From assembly GCF_001815985.1 (NCBI RefSeq), contig NZ_KV823558.1, forward strand, positions 1 to 64,000: a stretch of 64,000 bases of DNA, in the 5' to 3' direction. A program made the translations under genes and the position numbers. Positions 1 to 3,281 of the stretch are shown in pieces. How positions within the stretch are numbered: position 1 is the first letter of the stretch; each line of letters starts with the position of its first letter. The notes beneath the pieces were generated by a model. It saw only the letters and a list, made by a program, of their open reading frames with translations, was not told the origin of the DNA and made no database searches. The stretch comes from Corynebacterium sp. HMSC27B11. GTDB taxonomy: Bacteria; Actinomycetota; Actinomycetes; Mycobacteriales; Mycobacteriaceae.

Positions 1-154
1 CATGCGGACACACTTTTCTTTACTTAACCCGCCGACGGCTTCAGCTAATCACTGAAAGTCCCTCTGGGGAGGAGCGGCGGCGCGTGACGTGGGGGTGCGG
101 GCTCGGGGGTATGCTCGGGCGGAGTGAAGTTCGCGGGAACTTAATCGAGCGATC

Positions 155-175
155 GTCCGACTATCTATATCGGAC
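155..175. promoter_or_regulatory. Inverted repeat upstream of copC-like gene
   Basis: GTCCGA (155-160) and TCGGAC (170-175) form a perfect 6-bp inverted repeat around an AT-rich 9-nt spacer (CTATCTATA). It lies about 25 nt before the copC-like start, where a promoter -10 region would fall, so it could be an operator. I do not recognise the regulator. The rest of 1-198 shows no convincing gene. Confidence 0.35.
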
Positions 176-198: not shown

Positions 199-759
199 AT
201 GCAGTTGTGGTTTGCTGACGCACACAAGCTCCGGTCCCGGATTGCGGGCCTCGTAGCGGCACTCGTTACGGGGATTGCGATGCTGGGGGCCGGCGTTGGT
301 CCGGCGGCAGCGCACGACCTCGTGGTCGACTCCACGCCCAAGCAGGGCTCGAAGATCGAAGAGCCAGTCAAGGAGATCTCCTTGACATTCTCGGGTGTTC
401 CTAAGGAGGGCTTTAATCGAATCGCGCTGTCCCGCGATGGCGACGTTCTCTTCACTGGGGAGCCCGATGCAGATGGCCGAGTTTTGAGCATCGAGGTGTC
501 TGACGACGTGGACTGGCAGCCCGGTGAATACACCGTGGGCTACCAGATCACTTCTTCGGATGGCCACGCTACTCGCGGTTCGCTGCAGTTCCAGTACGGC
601 GACGTCGAGGCTGCGGATTCCAGCTCTTCCGAGCAGTCGGAGGAGACGGGGTCTGAGGGGTTGGGCGTGCCTACCTGGATTTTCGGCGTAACCAGTATTG
701 TTGTTATTGCAGGAGCTCTCGTTCTCGCCATCGCACGGTGGCGGGATATCTCCAAGTAG
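199..759 (+). CDS. CopC-domain copper-binding secreted membrane protein
   Basis: A 186-residue protein with a Sec signal peptide, a CopC-like beta-sandwich domain, an acidic Ser/Glu linker and one C-terminal membrane helix (about residues 157-178), so it is probably anchored on the outer face of the membrane. Signal peptide cleavage after GPAAA would leave His as the first mature residue. A later DGH (Asp121, His123) supplies the other classical CopC Cu(II) ligands. The ATG at 199 is chosen because GGAAGG (188-193) is well spaced for it; an in-frame GTG at 193 is too close. It heads a cluster with another copper chaperone and a DyP peroxidase, which suggests copper handling at the cell surface. 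No CopD partner is visible in the window. Confidence 0.85.
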   Translation: MQLWFADAHKLRSRIAGLVAALVTGIAMLGAGVGPAAAHDLVVDSTPKQGSKIEEPVKEISLTFSGVPKEGFNRIALSRDGDVLFTGEPDADGRVLSIEVSDDVDWQPGEYTVGYQITSSDGHATRGSLQFQYGDVEAADSSSSEQSEETGSEGLGVPTWIFGVTSIVVIAGALVLAIARWRDISK

Positions 760-834
760 TTTGGGGCGCCTGCCTGCGGTCCTCACCGCAGGAGGGGCGA
801 AGAGCCACGAGAAACACCAAGGAGTCTGAAAACC

Positions 835-1140
835 GTGAAGCAGAACCGCACTGCACTGTCCGCCGTTGTCGCGCTGAGCGCCGCGCTCGCGCTGGCTGCC
901 TGCTCCCCGCCGAACGAGAAGGCTACCGGCACCGAGCACATCGACACCGCCACCGTCGGGGCAAAGACCCCGGAGCTGGGCGACAAGACGGACAAGAAGA
1001 CCGACTCGGCAACCTCTGAGACGGAGGAGACCACCATCACGTCTGAGGAGGCTTCCGAGGCTGAGGAAACGTCCGCTGATGTCGAGCCGGGTGCGGCCAA
1101 CGACGCCGGTACCGAGCCTGCAGCAGGCACCTTTAACTAA
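835..1140 (+). CDS. Small acidic lipoprotein, function unknown
   Basis: A 101-residue protein with a GTG start preceded by AAGGAG at 9 nt spacing. The N-terminus is a lipoprotein signal peptide with lipobox LAAC. The mature part is low-complexity, rich in Glu, Asp, Thr and Ala, and probably unfolded. No catalytic or metal motif is visible apart from one His. It sits between two copper-protein genes, so a surface role with them is plausible. The signal peptide and a short VGAK stretch resemble the next gene, which may hint at a degenerate paralogue, but this is weak. I do not recognise the family. Confidence 0.7.
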   Translation: MKQNRTALSAVVALSAALALAACSPPNEKATGTEHIDTATVGAKTPELGDKTDKKTDSATSETEETTITSEEASEAEETSADVEPGAANDAGTEPAAGTFN

Positions 1141-1257
1141 GCCTTTCTGGTTGGGTCCACATCCCATGCGCGTGGGGTGGAATGCCGGGGACGATTCTTC
1201 CGCCCCGGCCTCCCGCCCGCCGCACCAACCACTTCCTTGAGAATCAAGGACTTTTCC

Positions 1258-1944
1258 GTGAGGTACACCATGAACACAACCGTTGGACACTCTGTGCGTC
1301 GCCCCAAGTCTCTGCGCGCTACCGCAGTCGCGCTGATGGGCGTTACCGCTCTCGGCCTGGCCGCCTGCTCTCCTTCGGAGGAGAAGCCTAGCGAGCAGAC
1401 CGCATCTGAGTCTCAGACCGCTTCTGAGTCGCAGACCGCCGAGAACGCTGCCGAGGGGCTGACTTTCGAAGAGGCATACGTTGGTGCTAAGGGCACCGAT
1501 AAGGACATGACCGCAGTCTTCGGCAAGCTGGTCAACAACACCGACAAGGAGATCCACATCGTCTCCGCATCCGGCAGCCTGGATGCGAAGTACGAGCTCC
1601 ACGAGGTTGTCGATGGCGTCATGCAGGAGAACCCGGAAGGTCTTCGTATCCCGGCCGGTGGCGAGCTCGAGCTGAAGCCGGGTGGCGACCACATCATGAT
1701 CATGGACTACTCCGAGGAAATCGCCGCAGGTGACGACATCACCGTCACCCTCAAGGCAGAGGACGGCACGGAATACGAGCTCAAGGACATCCCGGCTCGC
1801 GTGCAGCAGTCCAGCCACGAGCACTACGGCGACGCCCACGGCGAGCACGGTGATCACGCTGGCATGGAGGGCCACGGTGAGCACGGTGGCCACGGTGCGG
1901 GCATGGACGGCGAGGGGGAGCACGCCGAGCACGGCGAGCACTAG
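1258..1944 (+). CDS. PCu(A)C copper chaperone lipoprotein with His-rich tail
   Basis: A 228-residue lipoprotein (lipobox LAAC) with a short Ser/Glu/Gln repeat linker, a PCu(A)C (DUF461) domain and a histidine-rich C-terminus. Family hallmarks include AYVGA at the domain start, LHEVVDGVM, RIPAGG, and LKPGGDHIMIM, which carries the HxM copper motif. The last 44 or so residues hold 11 His plus Met, Glu and Asp, an extra metal-binding tail. Known family members deliver Cu(I) to the CuA centre of cytochrome oxidase. The GTG at 1258 has AAGGA 7 nt upstream; an ATG at 1270 is the alternative. Function is inferred from the domain; metal specificity of the tail is unknown. Confidence 0.85.
   Translation: MRYTMNTTVGHSVRRPKSLRATAVALMGVTALGLAACSPSEEKPSEQTASESQTASESQTAENAAEGLTFEEAYVGAKGTDKDMTAVFGKLVNNTDKEIHIVSASGSLDAKYELHEVVDGVMQENPEGLRIPAGGELELKPGGDHIMIMDYSEEIAAGDDITVTLKAEDGTEYELKDIPARVQQSSHEHYGDAHGEHGDHAGMEGHGEHGGHGAGMDGEGEHAEHGEH
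1402..1437 (+). repeat. 18-bp tandem repeat in PCu(A)C linker
   Basis: Two adjacent 18-bp units (1402-1419 and 1420-1437) match at 16 of 18 positions and encode the repeated hexapeptide ASESQT. They lie in the flexible linker between lipobox and copper domain, where length can vary without harm. Confidence 0.6.
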
Positions 1945-1974
1945 AGCTGCCTCCCACCAAGTGATGAAAATGAC

Positions 1975-2011
1975 AAGCCTGGGCCACGTGACTAACGCGG
2001 GGCCCAGGCTT
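1975..2011 (+). terminator. Hairpin after PCu(A)C gene
   Basis: An 11-bp perfect stem, AAGCCTGGGCC (1975-1985) with GGCCCAGGCTT (2001-2011), with a 15-nt loop. Only a short T run follows, so termination may be partial and allow some read-through into the DyP gene. Confidence 0.55.
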
Positions 2012-2072
2012 TCCCGCCATTTGGCCGCGGATCAAGAGACTTAACAAGGACAGAAGAAGGTTTTTGAGCGAG

Positions 2073-3281
2073 ATGAGTACTGGGGAGTCTTCGGGATTTT
2101 TTAACGTCAGCCGGCGTGGGCTATTCGCCGGTGTCGGCGCAGCGGGTGCGGCCGCCGTGCTCGCCAGCTGCGCGGAAGGCGAGGGACGCGGGGGAGACAT
2201 GCCCAACTCCTCCGGGGACATCGAGGAAAAGTTGACCGTCCCCTTCGATGGCGCTCGCCAGGCCGGCATTCAAACGCCGCACCAGAGTCACGGGCTTATC
2301 GTGGCCTTCGACTTCCACAACACGAACAGCCGCGAGGCCCTCCGCAAGGATCTCCGCCGGCTCATGCGCGTGTGGACCCCGGACGCTCGGAAACTCACCC
2401 AGGGCGACGCAGCGTTGGCTGATCTCGAGCCCGAGCTCAACCTGCAGCCCGGCAACCTAACTATCACCGTCGGCTGGTCGCCTGCCCTCATCGAGAAGAT
2501 TGGCTCGCTCGATGAGGTTCCGAAGTGGGTCTCCTCCCACACCAAGGGACTGCCGAAGTTCAAGGGCGACGATCTGGACCCAGCGTTTAGCGACGGGGAC
2601 GTCGTCGTCCAAATGTGCGGCGAGGATCTGACCACCCTGTCCCACGCGATGCGAGTCCTGACCCGCGGCGGGCGGGACTACGTCAAGCCACGCTGGACCC
2701 AGCGCGGCTTCGTCGACATCCGGGAGGGGCAGACCGCACGCAACCTCATGGGCTTCAAGGACGGCACCGTCGTCCCGCGTACCGAGGAGGAATTCGACAA
2801 CGCGGTTTGGGACGACCGTAACGGCACCTCGATGATCGTGCGCCGCGTGACCTTCGACATGCCTGGTTGGGAGGCCCTCGACCGCGAGAGCCGAGAGAAC
2901 GTCTTTGGCCGCAAGGCGATCAGTGGTGCACCCCTGACCGGAGAAGACGAGTTCGATGACCCGGATCTCAACGCGGTGGACAAGACCGGACTGCCCGTCA
3001 TCGATCCCAAGAGTCACGTGGGCATTACGGCAGGGGAGGGTAAGCATATGCTGCGACGCCCGTTCAACTGGGACGGCGAGGTCAACGAGCACGGCGATTC
3101 CGGCCTGATTTTCATCTGTTTCCAGGAGGATCCGGACACCTCCTTCACCCCGCTGCAGCACCGTCTCGCGGAGAACGACCGACTTAATCAGTGGATCACC
3201 CACACTGGCTCTGGGGTCTACTGGGTGCTGCCTGGCACCGAACCAGGATCCTACTGGGGTCAGCAGATCCTCGAGGGGTAA
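2073..3281 (+). CDS. Tat-exported DyP-type heme peroxidase (EfeB-like)
   Basis: About 402 residues. The N-terminus has a twin-arginine signal (VSRRGLF, Arg14-Arg15) followed by a lipobox-like LASC (Cys33), so the enzyme is probably folded with heme in the cytoplasm, exported by Tat and lipid-anchored. The DyP signature GFKDG (catalytic Asp230) is intact. A later SHVG and the LRR motif fit the proximal heme His and the active-site Arg. Length agrees with EfeB-type DyPs. No efeU or efeO iron-transport genes are adjacent; the neighbours are copper proteins and thrS. The ATG at 2073 is preferred, with a TTG at 2064 possible. Confidence 0.9.
   Translation: MSTGESSGFFNVSRRGLFAGVGAAGAAAVLASCAEGEGRGGDMPNSSGDIEEKLTVPFDGARQAGIQTPHQSHGLIVAFDFHNTNSREALRKDLRRLMRVWTPDARKLTQGDAALADLEPELNLQPGNLTITVGWSPALIEKIGSLDEVPKWVSSHTKGLPKFKGDDLDPAFSDGDVVVQMCGEDLTTLSHAMRVLTRGGRDYVKPRWTQRGFVDIREGQTARNLMGFKDGTVVPRTEEEFDNAVWDDRNGTSMIVRRVTFDMPGWEALDRESRENVFGRKAISGAPLTGEDEFDDPDLNAVDKTGLPVIDPKSHVGITAGEGKHMLRRPFNWDGEVNEHGDSGLIFICFQEDPDTSFTPLQHRLAENDRLNQWITHTGSGVYWVLPGTEPGSYWGQQILEG

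Follow-up and report, generated by a model that had tools for sequence, protein, structure and literature searches.

We analysed the first 64,000 nucleotides of contig NZ_KV823558.1 of Corynebacterium sp. HMSC27B11 (the window), in which four genes for exported proteins, namely copC, a small lipoprotein gene, pcuAC and dyp, lie in that order on the forward strand between positions 199 and 3281. Window base 1 is the first base of the contig (C28; genome size 2.19 Mb), and the view upstream of copC ends at that base. A preliminary description of this DNA had reported four exported proteins in a row, and its coordinates, gene order and domain families were all borne out. Judged by DyP, the closest named relatives are 'Candidatus Corynebacterium intestinavium' (98%) and a metagenome-assembled C. 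urealyticum (97%). The features of the locus are as follows.

135..163, + strand: predicted sigma-C-type promoter, GGGAACT-N16-CGACTA, upstream of copC; perfect consensus match
199..759, + strand: CopC, exported protein predicted to bind Cu(II) (PF04234, E 3.7e-18); alternative GTG start at 193; C-terminal membrane anchor
835..1140, + strand: small acidic lipoprotein, clade-specific; ratio of nonsynonymous to synonymous substitution rates (dN/dS) 0.13-0.22; same position in 17 other species
1270..1944, + strand: PCu(A)C copper chaperone, a lipoprotein with a His-rich tail (PF04314, E 1.6e-28)
1975..2011, + strand: stable hairpin in the pcuAC-dyp gap; fold of 1945-2040 with a z-score of -3.1; kept in the three nearest genomes
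2073..3281, + strand: DyP-type haem peroxidase with a twin-arginine signal and a lipobox (PF04261 and PF20628); alternative TTG start at 2064

Solved structural relatives exist for the CopC, PCuAC and DyP families. Signal cleavage and lipidation were judged by reading the sequences, without a prediction program. In CopC, cleavage after ...GPAAA would expose H41 as the mature N-terminus, in line with the N-terminal His expected in the preliminary description. H41, D123 and H125 do not vary among the 75 aligned sequences, and a C-terminal membrane segment is visible. The protein is assigned to CopC by its PF04234 domain together with the N-terminal His and the distal Asp/His pair as predicted Cu(II) ligands; its score against the NCBIfam CopC equivalog is below the cut-off (47.8 vs 95 bits). 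The PCuAC domain carries the His, Met and HxM ligands that define a PCu(A)C chaperone (H111, M118, H141 and M143, 99-100% conserved in 77 sequences), spaced H-X6-M-X22-HXM rather than in the textbook H-X10-M-X21-HXM arrangement, and the previously noted His-rich C-terminal tail is present.

DyP contains the Pfam domains Dyp_perox_N and Dyp_perox_C and scores 210 bits against NCBIfam Dyp_perox_fam (cut-off 100.5). Among 81 sequences, the twin arginines R14/R15 are 100% conserved, and the Asp of the GXXDG motif (D230), the proximal His (H315) and the distal Arg (R329) are 99-100% conserved; the family score and the latter three residues identify a DyP-type peroxidase. The twin-arginine signal and the lipobox (LASC) are both as first described. 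The closest solved DyPs by sequence are 6qzo and 5jxu, with DtpA (5map) and the E. coli EfeB-type protein (2y4f) scoring lower. Like EfeUOB, the locus encodes a DyP exported by the twin-arginine translocation (Tat) pathway next to metal-handling proteins, several solved DyP relatives carry the name deferrochelatase, and the best NCBIfam equivalog is TIGR01412. However, the score against this equivalog (304.7 bits) is under the curated EfeB cut-off of 428, and the partners of DyP are copper proteins. The preliminary description had found no iron-transport partners nearby; this holds beyond the neighbourhood, as FTR1/EfeU had no match in the whole genome (EfeO lay outside the search). We therefore rejected EfeB-type iron uptake, and an EfeB-type iron-uptake or deferrochelatase role for this DyP is highly improbable.

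We compared the locus with the best DyP locus from each of 80 other Corynebacterium species, a sample picked partly for closeness and not at random. The order CopC-PCuAC-DyP was found in 69 of the 80, with thrS next in nearly all 69, so the idea that the gene set might lack conservation outside this strain is false. The window and these relatives thus share the order of the NCgl1610 operon of C. glutamicum, which comprises cg1884 (CopC), cg1883 (PCuAC) and cg1881 (DyP) (PMC9145763, PMC9728273, PMC7764795). The two systems also have in common the absence of a clear Sco (here no SCO1-SenC match over the cut-off genome-wide, and one sub-threshold match at 20.1 vs 22.8 bits) and a CtiP fusion encoded elsewhere in the genome. 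They differ in that the window has a small lipoprotein gene between copC and pcuAC, and its genes are separated by gaps and a conserved hairpin. Apart from the small lipoprotein, the cluster is the ortholog of an operon already described in the genus. The locus as a whole is an ordinary operon of a known kind, with the additional lipoprotein as its one puzzling part. What is new here is the assignment of the cluster to sigma-C, the breadth of that assignment and the clade-specific lipoprotein.

The distance from the PCuAC stop codon to the Tat motif of DyP is only 14-60 nt in many species, which implies that pcuAC and dyp overlap or abut in those species and probably form one transcript. The intergenic gaps in the window are wider (75-130 nt). 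The hairpin at 1975-2011, which is kept in the three nearest genomes, has no long run of U, and terminator prediction did not pick it up; judged by its predicted fold, it might lower dyp expression as a possible attenuator. Separately, the gap at 1141-1260, which separates pcuAC from the small lipoprotein gene, has a more stable predicted fold than shuffled sequences (z -3.4).

A second system for comparison is the sco-ecuc-SLI_4212-dtpA operon of S. lividans, in which a PCuAC-type lipoprotein and a Tat-exported DyP are linked to copper-enzyme maturation, and oxidation of Sco-bound Cu(I) by DtpA has been proposed (PMC4736821). Both loci encode these two proteins together, in S. lividans also with a copper transporter gene, whereas the cluster described here is without Sco or a CopD-type transporter, has a separate CopC and carries a lipobox on DyP.

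The sigma-C consensus is given as GGGAACT and CGACTA in PMC5483222, after Toyoda and Inui 2016. Our search for this published motif preceded the comparison with PMC5483222. Positions 135-163, shortly before copC, hold a perfect copy with a 16-nt spacer (GGGAACT-N16-CGACTA); it is the sole exact match in the window, where 0.05 were expected, and in the genome. Of the genomic matches to a slightly looser pattern with one mismatch, two fit the full GGGAACT-N16-CGACTA form with one mismatch, one before ctaB (haem O synthase) and the other before cydA (cydAB, cytochrome bd). Among the 75 sequences upstream of copC, 38 carry a perfect site (counting either T or A at the fifth base of the -10 element as a match), and in 56 of the 75 species a site at spacer 16 has no more than one mismatch. 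Shuffled controls yielded zero sites with at most one mismatch, and spacers 13 and 19 gave 3 and 5 one-mismatch matches. Conservation of the promoter is not mere relatedness, because the spacer bases vary freely. No sigma-70-type promoter was found in the region. The genome also has a sigma-C ortholog (G000:C9:168815-169282), divergent from a catalase gene that was recognised by eye; by locus number, cg0309 (sigC) and cg0310 (katA) are likewise neighbours in C. glutamicum. The -35 and -10 elements are those of the C. glutamicum regulon (Toyoda and Inui 2016, through PMC5483222 and PMC7337898), whereas here membership, including the sites before ctaB and cydAB, is predicted from sequence. The cluster of this strain is thus probably under sigma-C control, as assigned by its promoter sequence.

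Published data on C. glutamicum bear on what such control would mean. The sigma-C regulon is reported to be activated when cells are deprived of copper or the insertion of haem a is disturbed (PMC7337898), and SigC of M. tuberculosis is reported to prevent copper starvation (PMC7924339). The C. glutamicum genes have been placed in the copper-deprivation stimulon, according to work cited in PMC9145763 and PMC7764795, and an indole transcriptome shows a joint increase of all three by about 3-fold (PMC7764795). A review notes that cg1883 is in an operon with copC, probably for CuA assembly, and that C. glutamicum is apparently without Sco (PMC9145763). Expression of the NCgl1610 operon at 4 mM H2O2 raised cytochrome c oxidase activity by 13.8% and ATP by 26.7%, and a mutant deleted for the peroxidase gene had 10.4% less oxidase activity and was more sensitive to H2O2 (PMC9728273).

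Collectively, the genus-wide gene order, the shared sigma-C element and the C. glutamicum data support a joint role in copper supply to the oxidase, and we consider it highly probable that the cluster is a sigma-C-dependent operon whose products acquire copper outside the cytoplasm and deliver it to the bc1-aa3 cytochrome oxidase. Under this model, aa3 failure or copper shortage would lead sigma-C to transcribe copC, the small lipoprotein gene, pcuAC and dyp, in this strain on a presumed single transcript, along with ctaB and cydAB. CopC would retain Cu(II) at the membrane surface and, as we infer, would probably hand it to the CopD part of CtiP, a CopD-CtaG fusion. A CtiP-type fusion is present elsewhere in the genome, as is COX1, and is the likely receiver of CopC copper. 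The lipoprotein PCuAC would convey copper in the direction of CuA, with no clear Sco to partner it, and DyP would use H2O2 in the same place, most likely setting the copper redox state and/or clearing peroxide from the impaired respiratory chain. The combined response would thus increase haem O, bring in a bd oxidase that contains no copper, and step up the capture and delivery of copper; we take the operon to respond to failure of the aa3 oxidase because ctaB and cydAB are its predicted co-targets. Loose-looking surface proteins are in this way tied to one regulatory signal, which makes their function testable in a laboratory strain.

The preliminary description had offered two outcomes for the cluster, copper supply to cytochrome oxidase or detoxification of Cu(I). 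The former is supported by the gene order, the promoter element and the C. glutamicum data. In the latter, CopC and PCuAC would sequester excess copper and DyP would oxidise toxic Cu(I) at the cell surface, a role with which the copper-binding domains and the His-rich tail would agree, as would the fact that CopC was originally known from copper resistance operons. The promoter class argues otherwise, since a response to copper starvation and to a defective aa3 oxidase is reported for it, and the same promoter precedes ctaB and cydAB; placement of the C. glutamicum genes in the copper-deprivation stimulon, known to us through the citing papers, points the same way. We therefore regard detoxification as very unlikely.

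Several observations weigh against copper delivery to the oxidase by a single sigma-C operon. About 11 of the 75 species are without a recognisable site in the stretch examined, and the region upstream of ctiP in this genome has no sigma-C site beyond chance, so a sigma-C site at ctiP was rejected. The published effects on oxidase activity are small, at 10-14%, and come from measurements with H2O2 added. The conserved hairpin and the wide gap before dyp leave co-transcription of dyp in this strain open to question. Finally, one Corynebacterium genome (G069, 99% complete) has COX1 and no DyP match at all. DyP therefore looks like an aid rather than a requirement, and the idea that DyP and the aa3 oxidase are lost jointly was rejected for this genome. 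This genome is also a natural case for asking what DyP contributes.

For DyP itself, control of copper redox state and protection against peroxide or of haem have similar odds. That DyP has no action on copper and mainly scavenges peroxide or protects haem as part of the sigma-C response, with CopC and PCuAC alone supplying the metal, falls only slightly short of an even chance. The dyp deletion in C. glutamicum is sensitive to H2O2 and the benefit of the operon rises with H2O2 (PMC9728273), the sigma-C gene adjoins a catalase gene, and oxidation of copper by DyP is a published hypothesis, of which we found no demonstration in the literature examined. A copper role is favoured, on the other hand, because DyP is linked with copper chaperones in two separate lineages, Corynebacterium and the Streptomyces dtpA operon, and added copper restores GlxA maturation in a Streptomyces dtpA mutant (PMC4736821). 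A more elaborate proposal is that DyP is a dedicated copper-redox enzyme, using H2O2 to control the Cu(I)/Cu(II) state of PCuAC or CopC, within an order-wide sigma-C copper-starvation regulon with one invariant promoter, and that the small lipoprotein of the urealyticum-like clade joins the surface complex as an extra component for docking or scaffolding; taken as a whole, we regard it as rather unlikely.

The small acidic lipoprotein had no Pfam family match. Genus-wide matches to it were rejected, as they were mostly similarities of the signal peptide, an N-terminal module or low-complexity sequence; when each open reading frame was assigned to its best profile, 17 sampled species with the protein remained, all among the closest relatives by DyP and all with the gene downstream of copC. 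In one of them (L085) it lies between CopC and DyP, and PCuAC was not found in the cluster. Against three close relatives its dN/dS is 0.13-0.22, compared with 0.02-0.15 for CopC, PCuAC and DyP. It is thus a genuine gene under purifying selection, overall looser than on the other three, and a clade-specific addition to the known operon. Conservation is confined to C[ST]PP[HN][EQ], after which many members have DTAT; the remainder is a low-complexity, disordered-looking acidic tail with no conserved metal ligand besides the lipidated Cys. This composition, and its absence from most of the sampled genus, would fit a passenger without function in copper handling. Its dN/dS, its retained position in the 17 species and its persistence in L085 speak against that, and we consider a passenger possible but on the doubtful side. 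Any role would be conjectural, and a surface spacer or docking protein is our guess.

A module after the lipidated Cys, C[ST]PP[NH]E[NQ][PD]S..KVDTAT, is common to window 835-1140 and unrelated Corynebacterium lipoproteins (L226, L227, L229, L230 and L231), and could be a sorting or modification signal. The N-termini of the small lipoprotein and PCuAC are alike. An origin of the small gene as a 5' duplicate of pcuAC was nevertheless not supported, because the module also occurs on these unrelated lipoproteins.

The sigma-C element is specific, with about 0-4 exact matches per genome, and can help to locate copper-starvation genes across the order, including DyPs of unsettled natural role. In other genomes it precedes copC, ctaB, cydA, PepSY_TM genes and a DUF1775/YcnI gene, and in other families of the order it precedes CopC-CopD fusions and, in L152, a DyP; some of the order-wide matches are probably due to chance, because large genomes give control hits too. 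In several families (L183, L190, L196 and L172) the element precedes a zf-HC2 membrane-protein gene beside a gene for an extracytoplasmic function (ECF) sigma factor, and in L183 and L196 a CopC-type gene lies next to this pair. The sigma-C gene of our genome is 53% identical to the ECF sigma gene beside zf-HC2 in these other families, the next ECF reaching 36%, and the zf-HC2 membrane protein is a candidate anti-sigma factor or copper sensor. In addition, the element precedes long membrane-protein genes resembling the PepSY_TM family in L155, L162, L175 and L179 (Pfam-confirmed for L155); the known sigma-C target cg2556 of C. glutamicum is called an iron-regulated membrane protein. In one Corynebacterium species (L159), the element lies before a DUF1775 (YcnI-type) gene.

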